Shown here: positions 4,623-20,562 of the stretch, piece after piece
How the letters are laid out: each line of letters begins with the position of its first letter
Numbering within the stretch: the stretch's first letter is position 1
DNA from: Anaerolineales bacterium
GTDB lineage: Bacteria > Chloroflexota > Anaerolineae > Anaerolineales > Villigracilaceae
Assembly: GCA_016927315.1 (NCBI GenBank)
Contig: JAFGMV010000032.1
Span: 1-64,000 of the forward strand
Length of the DNA: 64,000 nucleotides
Direction: 5' to 3'
The notes under the pieces: model-generated
What the model was told of the DNA's origin: nothing
Seen by the model: the letters and a program-made list of their open reading frames with translations, nothing else
Databases searched by the model: none
Translations under genes and position numbers: made by a program

Positions 4623-5030
4623 CTGCGGTTTCCTTTTTAATGGAACTCTCGTAAAAGTATCTGCACGCCGAAATATCAAATCATCAGGCTGCAAGCCCGC
4701 CCTGCACTTGATTGGTGGTCTGCATCGCAGTCGGAAGCGGCTGAATACCTCGATCATGTGATAGGGTTGGAATTTTCTCAGATGAGGCGGGTCCTTGGGA
4801 GGCTCGCACAGAGGACCGGATTTCCGGGTTGCAGATGGCGGTAATTGTGCTCCAGGGCTTGGATCGCTGTCATGGGGGTGTTTCTCAACAGGACTTTCTC
4901 CGGGTGTTTTTTGTGACATAAGTCACAAAAAAATGAAGTGGGAGCTGATAAGATTAAAACCAGATGAGAAAACGATTTGTTGCCTCTCAGGTTTCCAAAC
5001 CCGATTTCAATTGCAGGCAGTGGAGGTGGA
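4623..5030 (+). other. Intergenic region and leader of the nitrogen-cytochrome operon
   Basis: There is no supported coding sequence in this 408-base stretch. Its right half holds a CRP/FNR-type palindrome and a possible -10 element leading into the tetraheme cytochrome gene. A short open frame from 4795 across this leader has no recognisable features. Confidence 0.5.
4912..4927 (+). promoter_or_regulatory. CRP/FNR-family operator upstream of the cytochrome pair
   Basis: TGTGACATAAGTCACA is a perfect palindrome, extended by T-runs and A-runs to 4907-4932. It fits the CRP-type pattern TGTGA-N6-TCACA. A -10-like TAAGAT lies at 4949-4954. With transcription starting near 4961, the palindrome centre (4919.5) would be at -41.5, the classic class II activator position. 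The regulator itself is not in the window. Confidence 0.7.
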
Positions 5031-5564
5031 ATGAAAAAACGGATAATATACTGGCTGGGCGGTGCAGCGGTTTTCTTCGTCCTGGTGATTCTCTCCTGGA
5101 TGACAGTTGAAACCGGTATTGAGGTTTCATCCCGGGCTACTTTTTGCGGCGCCTGTCATGCAATGGAACCAATGGTGAACTCCTATCGCGACAATACGCA
5201 CGGCGGGAACAATCCTCGCGGGATTACGGCTGCCTGCACCGATTGTCACGTTTCGCATGAAAATTTATTAGCCCATTTTGTCGGTAAGGCCAGGTCCGGG
5301 ACCCATGATATCTGGGTTACAGTGACTCGGGATGAGATGGCGATTGACTGGCAGGCAAAACGTGCGGAGCACAACGAGTATGTGTACGACTCAGGCTGCC
5401 TGACCTGCCATCAGGAATTGGAGAAAGCCACACAAGACAAAGGCCAGCACGAAAATTACTTTGTGGGTATCACAGATTCTCAATGTGTAGATTGTCATGC
5501 GGAGATCGGTCACTCCAATCTCAATATGTATTTGCTCGAAACAAAATATCAGTATGGTGACTAG
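5031..5564 (+). CDS. NapC/NrfH-type membrane tetraheme cytochrome c
   Basis: A 177-residue protein with one N-terminal membrane anchor (residues 5-25) and four heme-binding CxxCH motifs: CGACH, CTDCH, CLTCH and CVDCH. This is the NapC/NirT/NrfH quinol dehydrogenase family, which takes electrons from membrane quinol and passes them to a periplasmic-side reductase. GGAGG at 5022-5026 supports ATG 5031 rather than upstream in-frame starts. The gene lies 39 bases before an octaheme HAO-like gene, the standard pairing for such electron delivery. The size matches NrfH more than the longer NapC. Confidence 0.92.
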   Translation: MKKRIIYWLGGAAVFFVLVILSWMTVETGIEVSSRATFCGACHAMEPMVNSYRDNTHGGNNPRGITAACTDCHVSHENLLAHFVGKARSGTHDIWVTVTRDEMAIDWQAKRAEHNEYVYDSGCLTCHQELEKATQDKGQHENYFVGITDSQCVDCHAEIGHSNLNMYLLETKYQYGD

Positions 5565-5603
5565 TTTGCTGGACTGCCTGGAACTTACGGAAAGAGGTGA
5601 AGA

Positions 5604-6926
5604 ATGAAATATTTCAAATGGTTCGTGATTATTCTGTCTGTTATCTTGGTGAGCATGATCACAGTATCTTGTGGCGGGAAACCCGTTGAGCCACAGGAGG
5701 ATGATCTCCAGGGTCCACAGGTTTCACAACTCAGTGAAGAGGCCCGCGCCTGTGTGGCGTGCCATGCAACCGAGACTCACGGCGTGGTTGAGGATTGGGA
5801 CAAGAGCCGCCATGCACAAGAAGCGGTCAGCTGTACCGACTGTCACGAAGCGGTCCCCGGATCTCCAATGGCTCTCAAGGAAGTCGAAGGTCACGAAGAC
5901 CTGACCATTGCCGTTTCTATGCTGGTCCCGCCTTCCAGGTGCGCCGAATGCCATGAAGACCAGGCGGCGCAATTCGACGCCAGCGGGCACTACCGGGCTG
6001 GTCTGCAGTATTTTGAGAAAGAATCCATGCAAACCCTGATCAATGTTCATGAAGGGCAAAATCATCCCGAATTGAGCGACGCCTCAGACAAGACCGGGTG
6101 TATGCAGTGCCACGGCAGCCAGATCGAAGTGAACGAAACCGGTCATGCTACTGTAGACAGCTACCCGTCTTCCGGGATTGGCAATGTCTATCCCAATGGT
6201 GAAGTGGGCAACTGCACCGTTTGTCACACCCGTCACAGCTTTGATATTGCAGAGGCGCGCAAGCCGGAAGCCTGTGCAAGCTGCCATCTGGGTCCGGACC
6301 ATCCGGACATTGAAATCTATGAGAACAGTAAGCACGGACAGATCTATGCCACTGAAGGCGAAACCTGGGTTTGGGACAGTTCTCCCGGTGAATGGGAGCC
6401 AGGAGATTACCGTGCGCCGACCTGCGCCACCTGCCATATGAGCGGCATCGGAAACCTGGAATCCACACATAACATCTCTGCCCGCCTGTACTGGAACCTG
6501 TGGGAGCCCGAATCGACTGTGCGCAACAGCAGCGATGTCATGAGCGGGTCCTATGGCGATGGCGAAGCCGGCCGCGAAATGATGGAAGCTGTTTGTTCTG
6601 AATGCCACTCGACCACATTCTACACGGGCTTTTTCAAGAGCGGGGACGATGCAGTCAGGTTGTACAACGAGGCTTACTACATCCCGGCTGAAAAGATGCG
6701 TGCAGAACTGGCACAGAAAGACCTGCTGGGAGAAAATCCCTGGACCGATGAATTCCAGGTGCTGTACTATTACCTGTGGCATCATGAGGGTCGCCGCACC
6801 CGCCAGGGAGCCATGATGGGCGGTCCGGATTGGGCTCACTGGCACGGATTCTTCGAACTGCAGCAGGATATTTACCGCATGAAAGAAATTTACGAACAGC
6901 GCATCGAAACCGGTGTGATCGAATAA
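5604..6926 (+). CDS. HAO-like octaheme cytochrome c lipoprotein
   Basis: The 440-residue protein has a signal peptide and a Cys at residue 23 fitting a lipobox. It carries eight CxxCH motifs (CVACH, CTDCH, CAECH, CMQCH, CTVCH, CASCH, CATCH, CSECH). The spacing, the THNISARLYWNL block and the final GPDWAHWHGFFE block fit the hydroxylamine oxidoreductase (HAO)-like octaheme family. Where oxidative HAOs carry a cross-linking Tyr in the last block, a Trp seems to be present. If my remembered alignment is right, this points to a reductive enzyme acting on nitrite, hydroxylamine or similar. It is paired with the NrfH-like protein, which would feed it quinol electrons. Confidence 0.87.
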   Translation: MKYFKWFVIILSVILVSMITVSCGGKPVEPQEDDLQGPQVSQLSEEARACVACHATETHGVVEDWDKSRHAQEAVSCTDCHEAVPGSPMALKEVEGHEDLTIAVSMLVPPSRCAECHEDQAAQFDASGHYRAGLQYFEKESMQTLINVHEGQNHPELSDASDKTGCMQCHGSQIEVNETGHATVDSYPSSGIGNVYPNGEVGNCTVCHTRHSFDIAEARKPEACASCHLGPDHPDIEIYENSKHGQIYATEGETWVWDSSPGEWEPGDYRAPTCATCHMSGIGNLESTHNISARLYWNLWEPESTVRNSSDVMSGSYGDGEAGREMMEAVCSECHSTTFYTGFFKSGDDAVRLYNEAYYIPAEKMRAELAQKDLLGENPWTDEFQVLYYYLWHHEGRRTRQGAMMGGPDWAHWHGFFELQQDIYRMKEIYEQRIETGVIE

Positions 6927-8403: not shown

Positions 8404-8432
8404 TTGACTCGGGCAGGTTTATTTTCTATACT
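8404..8432 (+). promoter_or_regulatory. Sigma-70 promoter of the ubiquitin-like operon
   Basis: TTGACT at 8404-8409 and TATACT at 8427-8432 are separated by exactly 17 bases. Transcription should start near 8439, giving a leader of about 34 bases before ATG 8473. No other promoter of this quality was noticed inside the operon. Confidence 0.75.
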
Positions 8433-8443
8433 TGTGGTATCTT

Positions 8444-8454
8444 TGGTCTGACCA
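8444..8454 (+). promoter_or_regulatory. FadR/GntR-type operator TGGTCTGACCA
   Basis: TGGTC-T-GACCA is a perfect 5-1-5 palindrome matching the FadR-subfamily recognition pattern TGGTCnGACCA. It sits about 5-15 bases after the predicted transcription start and directly before the gene whose product carries a FadR/GntR winged helix. Overlapping weaker inverted repeats (CTTTGG/CCAAAG and TTGTGG/CCACAA) extend over 8432-8465. Autoregulation is the simplest reading. Confidence 0.7.
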
Positions 8455-8472
8455 CAATACCAAAGCGTGCCT

Positions 8473-10233
8473 ATGAAAATAAAGCCGATCACTTACAAAA
8501 CCCTGTCTGAAGCGGCTGCCAGCAAGCTGGCAGCCTCGATCCTGGGCGGCAGCCTGCCTCCCGGAACCCAGCTGCCGCCAGAACGCGAGTTGATCAATCA
8601 ACTGGGGGTCAGCCGCACAACCGTGCGTGAAGCGCTCAAGACGCTGGAAGAGAACCGCCTGATCGAATCACGCCCAAATGTCGGCTGGTTTGCAATGTCT
8701 ATCGATGAGACCAATATCACCCAGGCCAAGGAACTGGCCGGGGAAGCAGGCCAGGCTTCCAGGCTCGTCAAAGACGAGCCCATGACCCGGCCGCGGCGCG
8801 TCCCGGTGGGTCCGGAGAAGCCGCTGCACATTCCAAACCTGCAGCAGGATCGCCTGGGCACCTTTGAGTTCATCTCCTGGTGGGAGCGTGAAAAGGTGCA
8901 GGAGGCCAGGGTGCTGGTGGTCGGTGCAGGAGCATTGGGGAATGAAGTCATCAAAAACCTGGCTTTAATGGGTGTGGGGTATATCTTTGTGATTGATTTC
9001 GATAATGTCGAAGCGGCCAACCTGAGCCGCTCGGTGCTCTTCCGGGAGACGGATAACAACCGCAGCAAGGCAGAAATTGTGGCCGCCCGGGCCAAGGCTA
9101 TCAACCCACAGATCCATATCCAGTATCTCAATGGGGATGTCACCACCGGACTCGGGCTGGGGATCATCCGCCGTATGGATGTGGTCATCGGCTGCCTGGA
9201 TAACCGCGAAGCACGCCTGGCTGTTAACCGCTTCTGCTATTGGATGGACAAACCCTGGGTAGACGGCGCCATCCAGGAACTACTCGGGCTGATGCGAGTT
9301 TTCATTCCGGGGGAGGGGGCCTGTTATGAATGTACGCTGACCGAACAGGCCCTGCGCGACCTGTCCCTGCGGTACTCCTGCCAGCTGCTGGCGCGCAAGA
9401 ACGTGCTGCTGGGGAAGGTGCCCACCACCCCGACCATTGCTTCGATCATCGGCGGCATGCAGTCCCAGGAAGCCCTGAAGTTGATCCATGATATGCCGGT
9501 TGAGGCGGGCAAGGTTGTACACTTCAACGGCCTGACCAATGATATGCATACTACTGCGTACAACCCGCGTGAAGAATGTGAAAGCCACTGGACCTACGGG
9601 GAGATCACAGAACTGCCGGCGCGTGCTGAACGCGCTACGCTGGAAGATTTGATCCGGATTGCACGCGCCGATCTTGGCCCTGATGCGGTCATCGAATTGG
9701 ACCAGGAACTGGTCACTTCGCTGGAATGCTCCCAATGCCATGCCGTGGAAGCAGTGATACGGCCGGTCAGTGAGATCACCTTCGAAGCCGGTCACTGCCC
9801 GACCTGTAAAGTGCTGCGGGATGCCCAGTTCTCTCACATGATCACTGGGGAAGAGAATTTTTTGCACCGCACACTGTCCAATGTCGGGATTCCCCCACTG
9901 CATATCATCCGGGCCCACAATGGCCTGGAATACCGTTTCTACGAGTTGACCGGCGATTTACCCGAAGCGCTGCATTTTAATCACTTCGAAAAGCCGGAAA
10001 CTGAAGCGCCGCTGAAAGTTGGCAGGCGCATCCGGCTGAAAGATGGACCTGGCGGGTCTGATGCGCCCGGAAGCCCGGCGCAAAACCGCATCCATCTCAA
10101 AGATGATCAGCCGCAGGGCAAACTGACGATCCAGTCGGATCGCGGGAAAAACGGAAAGAACGGGAAGTCGAAACTGGTAAAGCTGGAAAAAGCCAAGCGC
10201 AATCGTTATCCGCAGCGTGCCGGGAAAAAATGA
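8473..10233 (+). CDS. E1-like ubiquitin-activating enzyme fused to a GntR/FadR winged helix
   Basis: A 586-residue two-function protein. Residues 7-75 are a GntR winged helix (LPPERELINQLGVSRTTVRE). Residues 128-350 are a ThiF/E1 adenylation domain, with GAGALGNEV (151-159) binding ATP, DFDNVEAANLSR with the conserved Asp, Asn and Arg, SKAE and GCLDN. Cys284, Cys287 and Cys303 are candidates for the thioester or a metal site. Cys419/422 and Cys442/445 form a zinc ribbon. The basic tail (515-586) has RIRLKD and RIHLKD motifs shared with other operon products. It should adenylate the C-terminus of the Ubl and pass it to the E2. ATG 8473 fits the short leader; GTG 8467 is an alternative. It is the first gene of a seven-gene operon. 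Confidence 0.92.
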   Translation: MKIKPITYKTLSEAAASKLAASILGGSLPPGTQLPPERELINQLGVSRTTVREALKTLEENRLIESRPNVGWFAMSIDETNITQAKELAGEAGQASRLVKDEPMTRPRRVPVGPEKPLHIPNLQQDRLGTFEFISWWEREKVQEARVLVVGAGALGNEVIKNLALMGVGYIFVIDFDNVEAANLSRSVLFRETDNNRSKAEIVAARAKAINPQIHIQYLNGDVTTGLGLGIIRRMDVVIGCLDNREARLAVNRFCYWMDKPWVDGAIQELLGLMRVFIPGEGACYECTLTEQALRDLSLRYSCQLLARKNVLLGKVPTTPTIASIIGGMQSQEALKLIHDMPVEAGKVVHFNGLTNDMHTTAYNPREECESHWTYGEITELPARAERATLEDLIRIARADLGPDAVIELDQELVTSLECSQCHAVEAVIRPVSEITFEAGHCPTCKVLRDAQFSHMITGEENFLHRTLSNVGIPPLHIIRAHNGLEYRFYELTGDLPEALHFNHFEKPETEAPLKVGRRIRLKDGPGGSDAPGSPAQNRIHLKDDQPQGKLTIQSDRGKNGKNGKSKLVKLEKAKRNRYPQRAGKK

Positions 10234-10283
10234 TTGCCGCGGCTGCTTCCCGGTAATCGGAAGAAACATCAGGTGTAGATACT

Positions 10284-11126
10284 ATGGCTTTGCGTGTTGA
10301 TACCATGAACCCTGCAAACATGCCACCGCAGAGAAGAATATCGCAGTATTTGGGGCGAAAATTTTTGCTGCTGCTGCTGCTTACCATTGCCTGCTCGCTG
10401 GCGCTGGTACTGCTGTATCGGAAGGATTTAGGACTGCCGCTGTTTGTATTCACTTATTTTGCAGACAGTATCCTGGCCTTGGTGGCAGGCCTGGGGACAC
10501 GACTCTTGTTGTCGAAACGCAGCTGGTTGATCAAAACACTTATCGTCCCGGTGCTGCCGGTCGCAGGCCTGGCCTGCCTGGGATATTTTTCGAACTGGAA
10601 GCTGGGGATTGATGTGCTGGTACTTCTGGATGGGTATGTCAGTTATGAAGACCTGGCTCACCTGGTTATCGGGATAACAGTATCCATGCTGGCGTTGTGG
10701 GCCTGGCGCCGACGGAGGCTGAATGAAGTGGAATCCCAGGTGATCGAACCCGTCCGCCAGGAGGTTGCGGCCCACTTCCCACGGCTCCGGACGCCTCAGA
10801 CCGGGGCGCTGCGCCCGGATATTGATTCCAGCCCGCGGATTGCCTCGCGCTTAATCAATACCAGCCGGTTGTTACGGCGTCCAAAGCTGGTTTTGGAGCA
10901 ACCAGTACGGCAGCCGCGCCCAAAGAGGTCTGCCGCCGCCGTCCGCAAGCCGCAAATTCAACTGGCGTTGGTCGAAGAACACCGCTGCCCGTATTGCCTG
11001 GAACCTGTGAAGAATAACGATGAGCGGGGCGTCAGGAAATGCGAAATCTGTCATACCCTGCATCATGCCGATTGTTGGGAAGTTACCGGTATGTGCCAGG
11101 TACCGCACTTGAATACCAAGAATTAG
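10284..11126 (+). CDS. Membrane RING-finger-like protein, candidate E3
   Basis: Four hydrophobic segments (about 27-45, 52-75, 82-101 and 125-140) are followed by a charged, Pro/Arg-rich cytosolic linker. A C-terminal metal-binding module follows: Cys235-PY-Cys238, Cys253-EI-Cys256, His260/261, Cys264-Trp and Cys271. The C..C / C..C..HH..CW order is that of prokaryotic RING-like treble clefs. Its position between E1 and E2 genes suggests a membrane-bound ubiquitin-ligase-like E3 of 280 residues. The last ligand may be Cys271 or His275, so the fold could instead be a related zinc finger. The linker has RPKLVLEQP, resembling the tail motif of its partners. It is 50 bases after the E1 gene and 8 bases before the E2 gene. 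Confidence 0.8.
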   Translation: MALRVDTMNPANMPPQRRISQYLGRKFLLLLLLTIACSLALVLLYRKDLGLPLFVFTYFADSILALVAGLGTRLLLSKRSWLIKTLIVPVLPVAGLACLGYFSNWKLGIDVLVLLDGYVSYEDLAHLVIGITVSMLALWAWRRRRLNEVESQVIEPVRQEVAAHFPRLRTPQTGALRPDIDSSPRIASRLINTSRLLRRPKLVLEQPVRQPRPKRSAAAVRKPQIQLALVEEHRCPYCLEPVKNNDERGVRKCEICHTLHHADCWEVTGMCQVPHLNTKN

Positions 11127-11134
11127 GAGACCCT

Positions 11135-12127
11135 ATGTCGGATATTAACATCACCCTGATTCTTCCCAGTGGAGGGACACGTAATGCTGAAATGCCTGAC
11201 GACATCAGCATCCGTGATCTGCTGGAAGAGCTGGCATCGCTGCTCCAACTGCCTACGGTCGGACCTGACGGCCGGCCAATGGGGTACCGTCTTGACAGCA
11301 AGGCGCTCGGACGAGAACTCAAGGAGGATGAAACCCTGTCTGATGCCGGCGTCCCTGAAAATGATCACCTGATGATCACGGCAGATATCACTGCCGGGGC
11401 AGGGACATCCGTGGCCGGAACCCCGCGTATGCGCCGGCTGCGAGGCGACTATGAGTTGATGCTTGAACTGGCTGCCCGCAGTAACCTGATCTCTTTCAAA
11501 GAGTTTTCCAAGCATCCCAACCTGCCGCCGGAGCGTTATATCGTTACATATAAGTGCAAGAGTATTGTAGGGATCGATGCACACGGCAAACCGAAATACA
11601 GCGAACACCACCAGGTTGAAATCTACCTGCATAACCAGTATCCACAGCGCTGGCCGGGTATGAAATGGATGACCCCCATCTGGCATCCAAATATCAACCA
11701 TGTGAATGGCAGTGTGTGTATCGATGCCGCCTGGTGGGCAGCCAGCCGCTCGTTAGACCGCCTGGTCATCATGCTTGGTGAAATGCTCCAGTGGAAGAAT
11801 TTTCACGATGACCCTACCAAGCCGCCGTTTCCCTGGGATGCAGATGCCGCCCGCTGGTCACGTGAATACCGTAAGAAACACCCGGATGCTTTCCCTCTAG
11901 ACCAGCGTGAACTGCTGCGTCCGGAGCGCGTCAAGCTGAATTCGCCTGCTGCAGGCAACAAGGCAAAAGCGGGGCTCAAGCTAACGCCGGCAGAGCAAAC
12001 CCCCAAAACCAGGTTGAAAATCGGGCCGGCGGGTCCTGCAGGTCCTGCGAAAGGTGTTTCGAGCGGCCTGGTGAAGATCAAACCGCTGGATTTACTGAAG
12101 AAGAAACCGAAAATCAATTTGAAATGA
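11135..12127 (+). CDS. Ubl-E2 fusion: ubiquitin-like domain plus ubiquitin-conjugating enzyme
   Basis: 330 residues. Residues 1-88 are a YukD-like ubiquitin fold, about 69% identical to the separate Ubl gene by my count. Residues 98-250 are an E2 (UBC) domain with the HPN motif at 184-186 and the catalytic Cys195 in GSVCID. The E2 therefore has the key residues expected for accepting a Ubl thioester from E1. Residues 260-330 are a Lys/Pro-rich tail with five copies of the motif seen in the E1 and vWA tails (RVKLNSP, GLKLTP, RLKIGP, LVKIKP, KINLK). TAGGAG at 11124-11129 supports ATG 11135; longer upstream frames run into the RING gene. The fused Ubl could be a built-in substrate, a docking domain or a precursor. 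Confidence 0.93.
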   Translation: MSDINITLILPSGGTRNAEMPDDISIRDLLEELASLLQLPTVGPDGRPMGYRLDSKALGRELKEDETLSDAGVPENDHLMITADITAGAGTSVAGTPRMRRLRGDYELMLELAARSNLISFKEFSKHPNLPPERYIVTYKCKSIVGIDAHGKPKYSEHHQVEIYLHNQYPQRWPGMKWMTPIWHPNINHVNGSVCIDAAWWAASRSLDRLVIMLGEMLQWKNFHDDPTKPPFPWDADAARWSREYRKKHPDAFPLDQRELLRPERVKLNSPAAGNKAKAGLKLTPAEQTPKTRLKIGPAGPAGPAKGVSSGLVKIKPLDLLKKKPKINLK

Positions 12128-12208
12128 TTACCGTGCTGAATGTACATCAGTAAATAAAAACCGACCGGCTGAAGATCAGCCAACCTATACGTAAGAAAGG
12201 AGATTACC

Positions 12209-12475
12209 ATGTCCGATATTCCTGTCACCCTTGTACTCCCATCCGGAGGCAGCCGTAATGCCGAGGTGCCTGACGATGTGCAGGTCAAAGAGTTGCTCCC
12301 AGAGTTAACCACCTCGCTGGAACTCCCGGTTACTGGTCCGGATGGCCGGCCGATGTCTTATCGACTGGACAGCAAGGCCTTGGGTCGAGAACTCCAGGAA
12401 GAAGAAACCCTGGCAGACGCTGGTATACCCGAAGGCGATCGTTTGATGATGACCGCCGATGTGACTGCTGGGTAA
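12209..12475 (+). CDS. Free ubiquitin-like protein (YukD-like Ubl)
   Basis: An 88-residue beta-grasp protein and presumed modifier of the system. It ends in ADVTAG, so the C-terminal residue is a single exposed Gly and no proteolytic maturation would be needed. The sequence resembles YukD/EsaB-type Ubls (PSGGSRNAEVPDDVQVKELL and ALGRELQEEETLADAGI). It is the same length as, and about 61/88 identical to, the Ubl domain fused to E2, which implies a recent duplication. A strong AAAGGAG at 12196-12202 precedes ATG 12209. An 11-bp hairpin lies just after the stop. Conjugation is inferred from the E1, E2 and JAMM neighbours; YukD itself is not known to be conjugated. Confidence 0.9.
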   Translation: MSDIPVTLVLPSGGSRNAEVPDDVQVKELLPELTTSLELPVTGPDGRPMSYRLDSKALGRELQEEETLADAGIPEGDRLMMTADVTAG

Positions 12476-12484
12476 GTTCTGCAT

Positions 12485-12524
12485 TTTCCCTGGGCTGCCG
12501 GTATGGCCCGGAGGCCCAGGGAAA
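12485..12524 (+). other. Intercistronic hairpin between Ubl and JAMM genes
   Basis: TTTCCCTGGGC (12485-12495) pairs perfectly with 12514-12524, and an inner CCGG/CCGG pair is possible. No T-run follows, so this is more likely an mRNA stabiliser or partial attenuator than a full terminator. It would favour high expression of the Ubl over the downstream JAMM, FHA and vWA genes. Confidence 0.65.
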
Positions 12525-12543
12525 GATTTGAATCGAGAGAATA

Positions 12544-13197
12544 ATGCCCGGACTTGGTATCCGTATTGAGCCGCCAGATATTCTGCAGCCTCAAATTGCC
12601 GCCAAACCTCTTGAGAATGCGCTGCGTTGGGAATCTCAGCATGAGTCGGCCGAGATCATCCCGACGGTGTCGGTTTTCCTTCACCGGTCAGCGTATATCC
12701 GTGTCAGCGTGCATGCTTGCAGCGCTTCGGATGAAGTGGGGGGCGTTCTGGTTGGCGAGTGGCGCCAGGAGGAAGAGTCAGGTGAACAGTACCTGGTTGT
12801 AAAACACGCTCTGCCTGCCCGTCATACACGTCAGGGCAGTGTTTACCTGACGTTTACCCAAGACAGTCTTGTCGATCTGCACGAACAGATCGATAAACGC
12901 TACCAGGGTGAGCGGATCATTGGCTGGTATCACACCCATCCCCGTATGGGTATCTTCCTATCTCATTATGATACCTGGCTGCATAGTAATTTCTTCCCAG
13001 AACCCTGGCAGGTAGCTCTGGTGGTCGAACCTTATTCATCATTAGGTGGTTTTTTTATCCGTCAACGCGACGGTGAACTGGATCCACACCGTTATTTCGG
13101 GTTTTATGAAGCGGATGGGGCAAATGGCGGCAGCATTGCACGCTGGAAGAATTTGTCCCGGGTGGAAAATGGTTCTGAAAGGAGAAGTGTCCTATGA
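12544..13197 (+). CDS. JAB/MPN (JAMM) metalloprotease, candidate deubiquitinase
   Basis: A 217-residue protein with the complete JAMM zinc motif: His130-x-His132, then seven residues, Ser140-x-x-Asp143 (HTHPRMGIFLSHYD). The partner Glu is in DEVGGVLVGE, probably Glu64. JAMM enzymes of the Rpn11/AMSH type cut isopeptide or peptide bonds after ubiquitin-like proteins. Here the likely roles are removing Ubl from targets or cutting the Ubl-E2 fusion after TAG. The N-terminal 40 residues have no assigned domain. The ribosome binding site is weak (GAGAGA). The gene overlaps the FHA gene by four bases (ATGA), so the two are translationally coupled. Confidence 0.92.
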   Translation: MPGLGIRIEPPDILQPQIAAKPLENALRWESQHESAEIIPTVSVFLHRSAYIRVSVHACSASDEVGGVLVGEWRQEEESGEQYLVVKHALPARHTRQGSVYLTFTQDSLVDLHEQIDKRYQGERIIGWYHTHPRMGIFLSHYDTWLHSNFFPEPWQVALVVEPYSSLGGFFIRQRDGELDPHRYFGFYEADGANGGSIARWKNLSRVENGSERRSVL

Positions 13198-14051
13198 GTA
13201 GACGAATGCGTTCTTATTATTATGCGCTGCTCGGCGCCTTAGGAGGATTGTTCGGCTGGCAGATCAGTGACCGGCTTGGTCTTTCATTTTCTACAAATCT
13301 GTATTTGAGTGAACTGGTGGTTGGTGCACTGGTCGGTTTGAGCGTTGGTGTGTGTATTGGCCTGACAGAAGGTATGCTGACTCGTAACCCGGTGCAGGCC
13401 GTGAAGTCGGGCCTGTTCAGCGGCCTGTTGGGCCTGGGGGCCGGTGCAATCGGTCTGCCGTTGAGTGAAATCCTGTTCCAATTTGTGGGCGCCGGTATCT
13501 TTGGGCGCATCCTCGGTTGGGCTCTGTTCGGCCTGCTGATCGGCCTGGCGGAAGGGGTGGTTGGGAAAAGCCAGGTCTGGAAGGGGATGCTGGGCGGCCT
13601 GCTGGGTGGTGCACTGGGCGGCTTCCTGCTCGAATCGGCGCACAGCTGGCTTGCAGACCCGCTGGCCGGGAAAGCCGCCGGCCTGGTCCTGTTGGGCGCT
13701 TCTGTGGGAGCATTCATCTCCCTGATCGTTGTCCTGCTGTCGAAAGCCTGGCTGGAAGTTGCTTCCGGCAAGCTCAAGGGCACTGAATTCATCCTGGATA
13801 AATTCCTGAAGGCCGGTGGGCCGGCGATTGCAATCGGCAGTTCCCCGCTCAAGTCGGAAATTGTCCTGCCCGACCCAGATATCGCTCCTCAGCACGCCAT
13901 GCTGACCGGGGATGGGGTGCGTTTCACACTCAAGGACATCAGTCTTTCGGGCACCTACTGTAATAACAAACGGATCGAGCAGGCCTCCCTGGTCAATGGT
14001 CAAAAAATCCGTATGGGTAACACCGAACTGGTGTACCACGAAAAGAGGTAA
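13194..14051 (+). CDS. Gly-rich membrane protein with C-terminal FHA domain
   Basis: A 285-residue protein. Residues 1-185 are a repetitive Gly/Leu-rich membrane domain with several segments containing GxxxG packing motifs, such as GLFSGLLGLGAGAIGL. Residues 205-285 are an FHA domain: IAIGSSPLKSEIVL, the histidine of PQHAML, the SGTYCNN block and LVNGQKIRMGNTEL. FHA domains bind phosphothreonine peptides. The Arg normally following the first Gly (GR..S) is replaced here (IGSSP), so binding may be weak or altered. It may recruit phosphorylated partners to the membrane beside the ubiquitin-like machinery. It overlaps the JAMM gene and lies 2 bases before the vWA gene. Confidence 0.85.
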   Translation: MSRRMRSYYYALLGALGGLFGWQISDRLGLSFSTNLYLSELVVGALVGLSVGVCIGLTEGMLTRNPVQAVKSGLFSGLLGLGAGAIGLPLSEILFQFVGAGIFGRILGWALFGLLIGLAEGVVGKSQVWKGMLGGLLGGALGGFLLESAHSWLADPLAGKAAGLVLLGASVGAFISLIVVLLSKAWLEVASGKLKGTEFILDKFLKAGGPAIAIGSSPLKSEIVLPDPDIAPQHAMLTGDGVRFTLKDISLSGTYCNNKRIEQASLVNGQKIRMGNTELVYHEKR

Positions 14052-14053
14052 CC

Positions 14054-15214
14054 ATGCTTGCAAGAAAATGGTCGTCTTTCTTGTTGCTCTCAATTCTCTT
14101 TGCCTGGGTTGGTCTGCAGCCATGCTCGCAGGCAGCTGCGCAGGGGGATATTCAGGTGCGAATAACGCAGGTGGATAATTCACAATTCCCGCGTGTGACG
14201 GTTTATGTTTCGGTCACGAATGCGGCCGGGGAACCGGTCGGCGTGGATCCCGCCACGATCCAGATTTTCGAGAACGGTGAAGCGGTTGCGCCCGTGGATA
14301 TGCGCGGCGGAGGGGAACTGCTTGGCGGCGAATCGATCCCTGTTACAACCATGCTGGTCATGGATATCTCCGGCAGCATGGAGAAAAATGATAAGATCGG
14401 TGCGGCCAAGGAAGCGGCCAGGTCTTATGTCAATGCCATCCGTTCCGGAGACCAGGTGGGCATCATTTCCTACGATACGCATGTCTATACTGTCCAGCCG
14501 GTTACTTCGGATATTCCCACGCTGGTCACTGCCATCGACGGGTTGCAAACCGGCAGCGATACGGCCATGTACAATGCCCTGATGGAAGCAGAAATGGCGC
14601 TGGAAAATGTCACCGACCGCAAAGCAATTATCGTGCTGACCGATGGGATGGACAACCAGAGCATCTATAATGCAGAAGATGTGGTCAATGGGATCGGCGA
14701 AAGCGGTCTGTCTATCTCTGCAATTGGCTTTGGTGATATCAATGCTGCCGGCCAGGAGGGACTGGATGAAGAAGGGTTGAAATTCCTGGCAGAGATGTCA
14801 GGAGGCCAGTATGCCTTTGCCACCGATGCCCAGACGCTGAACACGCTGTACCACCAGTATGGTCAGTCACTGCAGAGTGAATATGCCATCACTTACATTT
14901 CCCCGGCGACGCTCAGGGATGGGATCAACCGCCAGTTGACGGTATCGCTGACCGAGGTCGGTGTGCTGGCAGAGGAAGCCTATAACCCGGGCGGTGTCCT
15001 GCCGGAAGTCTCCAGTTCCTCATGGCCGTTGTTCGGCGGTATCCTGGTTGTCCTGCTGGTGCTGCTGGTAGTGCCTTTGGCGATCAACCGCATTGTGCAG
15101 GCCTTCAGCCCGGCATCTTCCGGTGATCGGGCTTCAAAAAGGCCAAAGGGCAGGATTAAGATGGATCGTCCCCCCATGGAGAGTGGGAAACGACCACGGG
15201 TGAAGCTCAAATAA
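14054..15214 (+). CDS. Membrane-anchored von Willebrand factor A protein
   Basis: 386 residues. An N-terminal signal peptide is followed by a beta-rich segment (35-90) and a vWA domain with an intact MIDAS metal site: DISGS, the Thr in GSDTAMYN and LTDGMDN. A C-terminal membrane helix (about 326-347) leaves a roughly 40-residue basic cytosolic tail containing RIKMD (367-371) and ending in RVKLK. The same short motifs repeat in the E1 and E2 tails. The vWA domain should face outside and the tail inside, so this protein could tie the conjugation machinery to an external ligand or to cell-envelope assembly. It is the last gene of the operon, with a terminator 12 bases after the stop. Confidence 0.88.
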   Translation: MLARKWSSFLLLSILFAWVGLQPCSQAAAQGDIQVRITQVDNSQFPRVTVYVSVTNAAGEPVGVDPATIQIFENGEAVAPVDMRGGGELLGGESIPVTTMLVMDISGSMEKNDKIGAAKEAARSYVNAIRSGDQVGIISYDTHVYTVQPVTSDIPTLVTAIDGLQTGSDTAMYNALMEAEMALENVTDRKAIIVLTDGMDNQSIYNAEDVVNGIGESGLSISAIGFGDINAAGQEGLDEEGLKFLAEMSGGQYAFATDAQTLNTLYHQYGQSLQSEYAITYISPATLRDGINRQLTVSLTEVGVLAEEAYNPGGVLPEVSSSSWPLFGGILVVLLVLLVVPLAINRIVQAFSPASSGDRASKRPKGRIKMDRPPMESGKRPRVKLK

Positions 15215-15226
15215 TCTGCGTTCAAT

Positions 15227-15267
15227 AAGGACTTTTCCAATGAAGACAGGAAGAGTCCTTTTCTTTT
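15227..15267 (+). terminator. Intrinsic terminator of the ubiquitin-like operon
   Basis: A 12-bp stem with one U-G pair (15227-15238 with 15249-15260) has a 10-base loop and is followed by TTCTTTT. It closes the operon and separates it from the convergent HAD gene. Confidence 0.8.
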
Positions 15268-17063: not shown

Positions 17064-20000
17064 CTACTTGTTCTTTCGATTCAGCGGCACAACCACGCTG
17101 GCCTCTGTATACGTTTCATTGCCGCAGGCATCCACAGCCATATAGGTGAGGGTATAGATACGCCCGCTGCCTTGCATAGACCTCTCAGCACGCAGCAGGA
17201 TCGTGGTATCGTCTAGGATCACGATGTCGTTTATTGTATTTCCATCCCCCGTCCCATTATCCGGTTCATTGGAGGTTACCGAAACAAGGCTGACGGTTGG
17301 GTTCGGATCGAAATTATCTGCCGCCGCTGGGGCCGCGGTGACTTCAACGTATTTGTGATTGGCAGGCCACAGTGTATCCGGTGTTACGGTAACTTCCAGG
17401 GTGGGGGCGATTTCATCACACAGGTTCAACCCAATAATGATCGGGTCGTGATCAGACGAGCGGAACGCATTGGGTTCGAAGATTGCATCCTGGGCATCCT
17501 CTTTGTAATCCATGTCGTAATCCAGCAGGTCGGGTTCATCTGCATTGATGTGCCATTCGGTTATCCCGGTGATTTCATCCAGGAGTTCATTGTTCGCCAG
17601 TGCATGATCCAGGTACCCCAACTTCCCATCAAAGACATAAGAATAGGCATACTCACCTTTGAAGTAGTCGTTCATGTCGGTGTAGTCGTCGTCCGTACCC
17701 GGGATGTCATCAGACCCTGCCCGGATGGCGTCTATGGGATCTTCCTTGTCATAGGAATTCAGATCACCAAGGATCAGGAAATCGCTGTCTCCACTGTTGG
17801 TCGGGTCTGAGGCCAGCCAATCGACCAGGGCTTCGGCCGCCGCGGTGCGGGTCAGGTTGCAGTTCCCGGCTCCGTCGCCAATGTCTGGATCGCCAATGTC
17901 TTCACAGGAGGACCCTTTTGACTTCAGATGGTTGATCACCACAGTGGCCATGCCGCCGGTGGAGTTCTCCATAAATGTCTGGGCCAGGGCCGGACGGTTT
18001 TTGGAATCGATGAAACGCGGATCGATACTGGAGTCCAGGACTGCATAGTCACCGACCAGTGATACAGCAGCCGGTTTGTAAATGAATGCGACTTTGATCT
18101 CATCCTGTCCAATCACACCGGTATTGACAAATGCGTAGGTATCGGCCCCCATGGCATCATTGAGACCAGTCACCAGGTCTTGGATGGCTTCGGTGTTGTT
18201 CTCGATTTCCAGCAGGCCCACCACATCCGCATTCATAGCTGCGATCGCAGCTATGATCTTGGTACGCTGACGGTTAAATTCTTCCGGCGTATTGGCCCCG
18301 CGGCTGTTGAGTGTCGTGAAGTAGTTCAACACGTTGAAGGAAGCGACCTTGATCCTGCCGCCGACATCTTCCGGGTTTTCCGGGCGTGTGTTTTCTACTG
18401 TGTAGTCTGCTCCCTGGGTCGGCTGGATCCGATAGAGGTCATGGGAATAATCCAGGATCCCGGTGACATTCTGCAGGGTATCCCCGCCGCGGAAGAGATT
18501 GGTCAGGTCGAAGACCCCGCCGTTGGGATGCAGCGCTGGATCCGGATTCTGGTACGTGCGCCCGTCATCCAGTGTAATGCGGTTCAGAACGTATTCTCCT
18601 GCCAGGGCAATGGCATCCGGGCCGGGTTCTACCACGCTGGTGGGTGTGAACTGGCGAGAGGTGCTCAAGACGATCTCCCCGTAGCGGTCGTAATTGTAGT
18701 ATTCAGAGATATAGAGGGTTTGTGGCAGGGCGACCAGCATCCCCTCGTAAATTTCTAAATCTTCCAGGCTGGTGACTGGTAAGGAGATTGTCGTGGGGAG
18801 CAAGCTGTTGCCGGTTGAGCAGTTCCAGACCTGGCTGACGGCGGTGACCTCGGTCAGGTCGTAGTACTCGTCTACAATACCGCGTACCCGAACATGGTTG
18901 CCAACATTGACATCCGTACTGGTATGGTAGACGAAAATACCGTCAGATGTTGCCGGGTCCCCATCTCCACTGGCATCCTGGATGTAGAAGCCGCCCTTTC
19001 CTCCTGTCTGGAAATCGCCGACAACAATTCCCTCTGTTGCGACTTCATTACCATCCATGGCGCTGAGCATCTCATTGCCTTGAATGACGTAAATCGGTGT
19101 GAATGGGTCGCCGCAGCTCTCGGCCGGGGGAATGTACACGGCATTTGGAGCACCAGGGGTGTTATAAGCCTCTCCGGGCTCGATTGAACCCGTATATCCG
19201 GGAATGCCGGCCAGATCGAAATCATTGCGTACCCAATCGCGGTCTGTTTCTGTATCGAACCCATCCGGGATACGGGAAGCGCCGCCGGGTGCATAGCTGG
19301 CTCCATCGTAATACCTTCCCAGTACGGGAAGGCCATAGACGATATCGCTGCTGCCTCCGTCGTTAACGGCTGCACAATCGACGATTGCTTCCCATGGAAC
19401 GACATCAAAAACCCCGTCGTCATCAGTATCCAGGTCGGTTCCGCTGGAACTGGAAAAGTTCTTCACCAGCAGCAGTGTCAGACTGCCATTTTCAAGTGCA
19501 TTGGCAGGCAGGCTGGCCAGGTAAATGCCATTGGCATCGGTACTGCCGACAAGGATGACTTCATCGACCACACCGGTGTTGCCGCTGTCTCCTTCCAGTT
19601 CCAGAACGGAATATTCACTGTAATCGCTATCGGGGGTTCCAATGATTTCTACGTATTCCACATCTGTGCCTGTGGTGCTGGCGGAAAACTCGTTGATTTT
19701 GGGATCCACAGCGGCTGCACTACAATCCGAAATGTGGACGCCCAGTCCGTCGAATGTGTTCTGGGTAAACCCGTCCCATTCAAGGGCCGGATCGAAGGGA
19801 TCACTGCCGTCTGTATCTCCGGCGCAGGTTGCGGCCTTGCGCTGGAGTGTGTTATCCTGGGTGCTTTCCAGGTCGCTGCCCCATTGACTTCCGGGATCAG
19901 TACCGATCTGTCCGATCACATCCAGGGTCTGTGTATCTTTCACCAGGACAACCGCATCATCCCCGTTAAAGAAACCAGCCCCACTGGTCTGGTTGGCCTG

Positions 20001-20330
20001 GGCAAGGATTTCTGCAACTGCAGATGAATGAGCCAGTACAAATACATCGCCGGCTGCAACGGTTCCATTCAGGTTGACAGTCAGGCCGGGTGAGGCATTG
20101 CCATTGAAATACATTTGGACTTTGTATGCACCTGCGGCGAGATCGATATTTTCCCCGGTTCCGTTAAAAATCTCCAGCGCTTTGTTATTACTGGAGCCCT
20201 CAATATACTCCGAAAAAAACAGCTCCGCTGCCGGTGCAGCCAACGTGGGTTGGGGTGCGGGTATCAGAGCTGTTACCAGCGCCAGGGTTAAGGCAAGCGA
20301 AAACACTTTCGTTAGCTGGTGGTGTTTCAT
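17064..20330 (-). CDS. ExeM/NucH-type secreted endonuclease
   Basis: A 1088-residue secreted protein. After a signal peptide (cleavage near LAAPAAE) comes a lamin-tail-like domain (FFSEYIEGSSNNKALEIFN) and a second similar domain around residues 205-320. An OB-like region follows, then a DNase I-type endonuclease/exonuclease/phosphatase domain (about 680-1020) with VASFNVLNYF, GLLEIEN, NHLKSKG, LGDLNSY and SSDHDPI. These carry the expected metal-binding and catalytic residues. The last 80 residues are Ig-like. ExeM/NucH enzymes degrade extracellular DNA for nutrients. GAGGAG just before ATG 20330 supports that start over an upstream TTG. The stop lies 8 bases from the intron end. Confidence 0.9.
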   Translation of the reverse strand: MKHHQLTKVFSLALTLALVTALIPAPQPTLAAPAAELFFSEYIEGSSNNKALEIFNGTGENIDLAAGAYKVQMYFNGNASPGLTVNLNGTVAAGDVFVLAHSSAVAEILAQANQTSGAGFFNGDDAVVLVKDTQTLDVIGQIGTDPGSQWGSDLESTQDNTLQRKAATCAGDTDGSDPFDPALEWDGFTQNTFDGLGVHISDCSAAAVDPKINEFSASTTGTDVEYVEIIGTPDSDYSEYSVLELEGDSGNTGVVDEVILVGSTDANGIYLASLPANALENGSLTLLLVKNFSSSSGTDLDTDDDGVFDVVPWEAIVDCAAVNDGGSSDIVYGLPVLGRYYDGASYAPGGASRIPDGFDTETDRDWVRNDFDLAGIPGYTGSIEPGEAYNTPGAPNAVYIPPAESCGDPFTPIYVIQGNEMLSAMDGNEVATEGIVVGDFQTGGKGGFYIQDASGDGDPATSDGIFVYHTSTDVNVGNHVRVRGIVDEYYDLTEVTAVSQVWNCSTGNSLLPTTISLPVTSLEDLEIYEGMLVALPQTLYISEYYNYDRYGEIVLSTSRQFTPTSVVEPGPDAIALAGEYVLNRITLDDGRTYQNPDPALHPNGGVFDLTNLFRGGDTLQNVTGILDYSHDLYRIQPTQGADYTVENTRPENPEDVGGRIKVASFNVLNYFTTLNSRGANTPEEFNRQRTKIIAAIAAMNADVVGLLEIENNTEAIQDLVTGLNDAMGADTYAFVNTGVIGQDEIKVAFIYKPAAVSLVGDYAVLDSSIDPRFIDSKNRPALAQTFMENSTGGMATVVINHLKSKGSSCEDIGDPDIGDGAGNCNLTRTAAAEALVDWLASDPTNSGDSDFLILGDLNSYDKEDPIDAIRAGSDDIPGTDDDYTDMNDYFKGEYAYSYVFDGKLGYLDHALANNELLDEITGITEWHINADEPDLLDYDMDYKEDAQDAIFEPNAFRSSDHDPIIIGLNLCDEIAPTLEVTVTPDTLWPANHKYVEVTAAPAAADNFDPNPTVSLVSVTSNEPDNGTGDGNTINDIVILDDTTILLRAERSMQGSGRIYTLTYMAVDACGNETYTEASVVVPLNRKNK

Positions 20331-20562
20331 CCTCATCTCCTCTTTCAAATGGTTGCTGCTGTTATAAATATTGTAAGCGCATTCCTAACAAAAATGCAAA
20401 TAAATTGGATGGTTCTTTGGTAAGGGGAGAAAATTCCGGGCTGACCGCTATTGTACTTTTGTCTACTTGCGCTTCCGGAGACAGGTCTCTATAATCAATA
20501 TGTAATGGAAAAAACCTGATCGAGGCTTGGTGGATCAGCCTGCAGGTTCAAAGGAGAGAGAG

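Follow-up and report, generated by a model that had tools for sequence, protein, structure and literature searches.

Does the gene cluster at positions 8404-15267 of contig JAFGMV010000032.1, from an Anaerolineales bacterium of the phylum Chloroflexota, encode a ubiquitin-like conjugation pathway, and if so, what part would a DNA-binding domain and a set of membrane proteins play in it? The window analyzed here is the first 64,000 nucleotides of that contig. Seven genes in it, all on the plus strand and near-contiguous or overlapping, run from a promoter to a terminator (Table 1), in the order GntR-ThiF activating enzyme (E1), membrane Prok-RING_1 protein, fusion of a ubiquitin-like protein (Ubl) to a conjugating enzyme (E2), free YukD-like Ubl, JAMM isopeptidase, membrane FHA protein and von Willebrand factor A (vWA) membrane protein. 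Sequence evidence gives good support to a complete Ubl-conjugation operon with its predicted catalytic residues in place, and we consider it very probable that this is a real conjugation system. The picture as a whole, a membrane-tethered Ubl conjugation whose E1 would also be a transcriptional repressor, is one we favor on balance and with more reserve.

The E1 matches both of its expected families in Pfam, which was used for all domain calls on window proteins (GntR 1.9e-19, ThiF 9.3e-56). The GxGxxG of the ATP loop, D175, R186, K199 and RYSC303 are invariant in relatives. Conserved CxxC and CxxH pairs (CYEC 284/287 and C369/H372) make up a probable structural zinc site, and C419/C422/C442/C445 in the C-terminal domain a probable second one. 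Because the other conserved cysteines are assigned to these sites, C303 is the candidate thioester cysteine, and its position in a low-confidence loop of the E1 model (residues 301-316) fits what is expected of a crossover loop. Compared with known folds, the model resembles MoeB, ThiF, UBA3 and UBA2 (Z of about 28-31), and some alignments of the whole model to UBA2 and UBA1 run as far as residue 495, a hint of a C-terminal domain like the ubiquitin-fold domain.

The downstream enzymes are similarly well defined. The Ubl-E2 fusion matches YukD (2.6e-9) and UQ_con (1e-10), with H184, P185, N186 and C195 invariant in relatives, and both the fold search and the sequence profile for the E2 match eukaryotic UBC enzymes. 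Its start codon lies at 11135, where the stop codon of the RING gene (11124-11126) and a GGAG ribosome site directly precede it, and not at the upstream ATG (11039) chosen in an earlier, sequence-only reading of this DNA. The window copy of the RING protein matches Prok-RING_1 at 9.6e-5, and all 34 family members scanned match the same model (best 6.1e-12). Its ligands, C235, C238, C253, C256, H260/H261, C264, C271 and H275, follow the pattern C-x2-C-x14-C-x2-C-x3-HH-x2-C-x6-C-x3-H and are present in 71/71 members. The JAMM protein (JAB 1.4e-9) carries the ExnHxHx7Sx2D motif in 70/70.

Of 70 loci, 69 have a free Ubl (YukD 8.3e-14; net charge of about -8) that terminates in Thr-Ala-Gly (TAG); its last residue is almost always number 88, and in nearly all the end reads TAD[VI]TAG. 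This exposed end is fixed to the residue whereas the other termini of the operon are variable, a pattern that selection for activation by an E1 would produce. Since the chain ends exactly at the glycine, no processing is needed and the JAMM protein should be a deconjugase; a Bil-like Ubl that requires processing is ruled out on the same ground.

E2 matches are found in 15 of 61 related genomes, and public genomes yield 74 loci, titled Anaerolineae, Anaerolineales, Leptolinea, Pelolinea, Ardenticatenales or Chloroflexota and nearly all from Anaerolineae (named carriers are Pelolinea submarina, Leptolinea tardivitalis and Leptolinea sp. HRD-7). The order E1-RING-UblE2-Ubl-JAB-FHA-vWA recurs in practically every one of the 74 that is not cut by a contig end, far beyond chance. 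The sequence-only reading had proposed one operon with its own promoter and terminator, these seven genes and their catalytic residues, and a search of genomes for the same gene order. The promoter and the terminator hairpin can both be placed, all seven proteins have Pfam matches, the E1 GxGxxG, E2 HPN/Cys195 and JAMM HxH/S/D residues are invariant across relatives, and the search returned the order just described.

A profile search of 150 family genomes separates carriers cleanly from the rest. It returned 37 full-length GntR-E1 proteins at about 1000 bits, all matching from model position 1 and therefore all with the GntR part, plus a few fragments; the remaining genomes hold only MoeB/ThiF-like genes at about 100 bits or less. 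The Ubl-E2 profile matched in 18 of 400 sampled Chloroflexota genomes. Such patchy presence implies that the operon is not essential: it is accessory but chromosomal. It lies downstream of the rplK-rplA-rplJ-rplL ribosomal genes in 16-17 loci, and a lexA-like gene on the other strand adjoins it in 21 (L037, L102 and L039 are examples of flank contexts). Flanking genes vary, and no conserved extra operon members were found in the flanks of the loci. A mobile or viral origin was rejected, as no relative occurred in the viral contigs searched. Three loci (L074, L086 and L094) have a second JAB gene between Ubl and FHA.

Variants indicate which parts can be spared. A minimal form in another Anaerolineae family (L139:3997-9088 and L140:5979-11204), preceded by a CAP/SCP-like gene, comprises an E1 lacking GntR, a free Ubl, an unfused E2, two JABs and a soluble RING-like protein, with neither FHA nor vWA; the divergent Ubl also ends in EVTAG. 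One of its two JABs is extended by a further C-terminal domain and contains a hydrophobic helix. A full system occurs in another Chloroflexota class (L141:122-6757), where the E2 ends in KKRIKIK and is not fused to a Ubl, so the fusion is not needed; the Ubl-E2 fusion recognized earlier is real in the window and not universal. Separately, a Chloroflexota protein (L143:7118-8050) combines a weak YukD-like match with WD40-like repeats, with no E1 or E2 relative seen nearby.

What would hold such a system at the membrane? The sequence-only reading was right about the anatomy of the membrane RING, FHA and vWA proteins, and the latter two match Pfam at 1.5e-11 (FHA) and 5.7e-18 (VWA_2). The FHA domain has lost its phosphothreonine site, with GS in place of GR (69/69), mostly Ala in place of Ser, and the Asn before GT replaced in nearly all, which weakens a phospho-reading role. 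The vWA domain retains an intact metal ion-dependent adhesion site (D104, S106, S108, T170, D197) and is probably extracytoplasmic. The disordered tails of E1, Ubl-E2 and vWA align poorly by ordinary means, yet are alike at their ends (KPKIRLK, RPRVKLK, GRVKLHD). Defined as [RK][IV][RKH][LI][KRHD] within the last nine residues, the shared motif is present in E2 (51/74), vWA (36/62) and E1 (30/70) and absent from FHA, JAB, RING and Ubl (0), against 0.1-0.3% of composition-preserving shuffles and 0/472 flanking open reading frames. In RING proteins a comparable [ILV]-x-[LFV] stretch precedes the first RING cysteine by about nine residues. In the vWA protein the tail comes after the C-terminal transmembrane helix, so that all bearers would present the motif in the cytosol. 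The minimal variants, without FHA and vWA, are also without tails, so tails and membrane module come together. The JAB of one locus, L092, has RVRIKLG in its tail.

We regard it as fairly likely, from these alignments and counts, that the motif is a docking element. The FHA domain, degenerate as it is at the phosphothreonine site, may bind such unphosphorylated peptides. The best-surviving alternative, although unlikely, is that the basic-hydrophobic tails bind anionic lipids or are themselves acceptor sites for conjugation. The motif is indeed basic and hydrophobic, often with Lys, and two of its bearers are membrane proteins, with membrane recruitment conceivable for the others; however, the alternating [RK][IV][RK]L is specific, occupies the extreme C-terminus, and Arg often replaces Lys in it.

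The second question is why an E1 should carry a GntR domain. The protein has one ThiF module and no standard GntR effector domain (FadR, HutC, MocR and others); the E1 stands in that place. Facing this GntR domain, just after the -10 box, is a conserved operator, TGGTCTGACCAnnATACCA, which lies 5′ of the E1 start codon and overlaps the predicted transcription start. Among 62 loci with readable upstream DNA, exact TGGTnnnACCA occurs in 52 and a slightly relaxed core in 58. Operator positions 0-10, 13 and 15-18 are near invariant and the flanks variable. The site is present before the GntR-E1 of L141, from the different Chloroflexota class, and ahead of the L139 E1, which has no GntR domain, no operator match was found. 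A palindromic operator and a GntR winged helix, the sequence-level marks of the GntR family, are thus both found, and DNA binding is predicted; the case for a DNA-binding E1 is stronger than the sequence-only reading knew. In the source genome, which is 92.7% complete (the scope of all genome-level negatives given here), the extended operator was found once, and elsewhere the 11-bp core is no commoner than control and never has the ATACCA half. A wider regulon for the GntR-E1 was ruled out, the other TGGTCNGACCA sites being not above control frequency and without the second half.

Because a conserved operator faces the GntR domain of the E1 just after the -10 box, autorepression is the simplest reading, and the E1 is probably a repressor of its own operon. 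A GntR domain that controls other genes, or activates, so that the E1 would be no autorepressor, is a rather unlikely alternative. It draws on the operator being known by position and conservation only, and has to contend with a site that, in 58 of 62 loci, covers the point where transcription of this gene is predicted to begin, and with an extended site found a single time in the genome.

Table 1. Positions of the operon features in the window, with amino acid (aa) ranges of protein domains.
Feature	Position	Strand	Remarks
Sigma-70 type promoter TTGACT-17-TATACT	8404..8432	+	Similar -10 at the same place in most relatives
Operator TGGTCTGACCA-CA-ATACCA	8444..8462	+	Predicted site for the GntR domain of the E1 itself; just past the -10
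E1	8473..10233	+	GntR winged helix, aa 12-73; ThiF/E1 adenylation domain, 133-370; zinc-bearing C-terminal domain, ~378-494; disordered tail with common motif
Membrane RING protein	10284..11126	+	~4 hydrophobic helices; C-terminal Prok-RING_1 domain
Ubl-E2 fusion	11135..12127	+	YukD-like Ubl, aa 1-88; E2/UBC, ~96-262; HPN 184-186; Cys195; tail end KPKINLK
Free YukD-like Ubl	12209..12475	+	88 aa; C-terminus TADVTAG
JAB/JAMM isopeptidase	12544..13197	+	E64, H130, H132, S140, D143 invariant
FHA protein	13194..14051	+	Multi-pass membrane protein; C-terminal degenerate FHA domain
vWA protein	14054..15214	+	N-terminal signal-like segment; one C-terminal transmembrane helix; tail end RPRVKLK
Intrinsic terminator	15227..15267	+	12-bp stem 15227-15238/15249-15260 with one G-T pair, then T-rich tail; read from sequence

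Other readings of the operon as a whole fare less well than conjugation. An operon for defence against phage, comparable to Bil, Bub or the type II cyclic-oligonucleotide-based antiphage signaling system (CBASS) would account for the patchy distribution and for the matches of the PADLOC E1-E2 and JAB models to E1 and JAB, and those systems use similar enzymes, often with their own transcriptional regulators (PMC13373217). Yet this operon is without a CD-NTase, effector or Cap regulator, has no relative in viral contigs, keeps a nearly frozen gene order and often sits beside the ribosomal or lexA genes noted above, which makes a defence role improbable. More improbable still is a sulfur-carrier system of the MoaD/ThiS kind, in which the product of the E1 would be a Ubl thiocarboxylate used in biosynthesis, with accessory parts for E2, RING and JAMM: the E1 fold is ThiF/MoeB-like, there is one small Ubl, and JAMM proteins accompany sulfur carriers too (PMC1779556), but a complete UBC in which HPN and Cys195 are invariant, together with a RING, has to be explained, the conserved operon holds no sulfur-metabolism gene, the Ubl ends in AG instead of GG, and another ThiF-family gene lies at a separate place in the source genome. 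A type VII secretion accessory, with an unconjugated YukD-like Ubl and an FHA protein as in the Yuk/Ess locus, can be dismissed as highly improbable, since the YukD family membership of the Ubl and the presence of FHA and membrane proteins are outweighed by the lack of any WXG100 protein found in the source genome and by E1, E2, JAMM and RING proteins that have no place in that system.

Several observations weigh against the membrane-tethered, self-repressing pathway that we prefer. The Ubl ends in Ala-Gly, not in Gly-Gly, and the RING match of the window copy falls below the Pfam cut-off for Prok-RING_1. The position of the operator is all that speaks for repression over activation. The operon is present in about a quarter of family genomes. 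Additionally, the AlphaFold model leaves the E2 tail unfolded and undocked on its own Ubl domain (predicted local-distance difference test score 44), with no docking partner seen.

The pathway we propose would run as follows. The E1 would adenylate the C-terminal glycine of the 88-residue Ubl and hold it as a thioester on Cys303, from which it would pass to Cys195 of the Ubl-E2. The membrane RING would promote attachment to a nucleophile (probably Lys) of proteins on the membrane's cytosolic side, and the JAMM protein would remove the Ubl again. The tails could dock E1, E2, the RING linker and vWA on a common partner, for which the acidic Ubl and a non-phospho FHA scaffold are candidates. The vWA protein could recognize a ligand in the envelope, or a metal, and, more speculatively, signal to the RING/E2 complex through its cytosolic tail. 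No proteasome (PF00227) or HslV was found in the source genome, which makes it unlikely that the tag simply marks proteins for those proteases; a proteasome link was ruled out by the absent PF00227 match.

GntR proteins need dimerisation, and MoeB, ThiF and UBA5 are dimers, so the ThiF domain could supply the dimerisation of the GntR-E1. An E1 dimer would then bind TGGTCTGACCA and lower its own transcription, and engagement with Ubl and ATP would alter DNA binding, such that the operon reads its own conjugation load. The feedback logic may be likened to BirA, an adenylating enzyme that bears a winged helix at its N-terminus and acts as both ligase and repressor of its own pathway, or to MocR, a GntR domain fused to an enzyme domain; here the place of the biotin ligase or aminotransferase is taken by a ubiquitin-type E1. 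A fuller version, in which the E1 is a transcription factor of its own operon with Ubl charging setting expression, and the tail motif assembles a membrane complex that includes the vWA protein as an extracytoplasmic sensor, is possible and put forward only tentatively.

How much of this is new? The parts list is not new in kind. Burroughs, Iyer and Aravind (Mol BioSyst, 2011), from the group behind the 2006 operon types treated below, reportedly added prokaryotic RING fingers and proposed conjugation of YukD-like Ubls, and the neighborhoods are said to unite E1, UBC-type E2, JAB, YukD-like Ubl and prokaryotic RING in one operon, as here; Pfam's Prok-RING_1 stems from that line of comparative genomics. 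We know of no account of a GntR-E1 with an operator, a common tail motif, an invariant Ala-Gly end or a degenerate FHA, and of no other ubiquitin-type system in which an E1 is fused to a DNA-binding domain. Likewise, no GntR-E1, FHA, vWA, membrane RING or Ubl-E2 fusion is known to us from the Caldiarchaeum subterraneum operon, the closest functional analogue. What goes beyond the parts list is the GntR-E1 with its operator, the common tails and the FHA loss of phosphothreonine residues. The novelty claimed at the outset therefore holds for the regulatory fusion with its operator and for the tails, known to us from nowhere else, and is weaker for a parts list that resembles earlier comparative-genomics proposals.

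Genomic work in 2006 had already described operons that combine E1, E2, JAB and Ubl, with YukD treated as unconjugated (PMC1779556). The Caldiarchaeum operon is likewise compact, with Ub, E1, UBC E2, small RING and JAMM (PMC5654768, PMC6043591), whereas no proteasome-type protease was found in the source genome here. BilABCD shares a bacterial Ubl, E1, E2 and JAMM and has no RING, FHA or vWA; its tandem-Ubl BilA needs processing, its E2 is of the CEHH type and its E1 has two modules (PMC11354881), compared with a single Ubl, an HPN E2 and one ThiF module in this operon. Type II CBASS differs in its CD-NTase and effector, which this operon lacks. The Caldiarchaeum operon (PMC5654768), like Bil, Bub and CBASS (PMC11354881, PMC13373217), is a relative in kind.

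Elsewhere in the window, two multihaem cytochrome-like proteins rich in CxxCH (4977-6926) lie upstream of an aldo-keto reductase-like gene, and the minus strand at 17064-20348 encodes a large, probably secreted protein that resembles, by eye, the endonuclease/exonuclease/phosphatase family.

If the proposed pathway is true, these Chloroflexota would possess a bacterial E1-E2-RING-JAMM pathway with eukaryote-like HPN chemistry that is apparently proteasome-free, coupled to the membrane and provided with feedback inside the E1 itself. The operator, Cys303, Cys195, the Ala-Gly end and the tail motif are specific predictions that can be tested with purified proteins, and the operon would offer a compact system for asking what role ubiquitin-like tagging has without proteasomal degradation.

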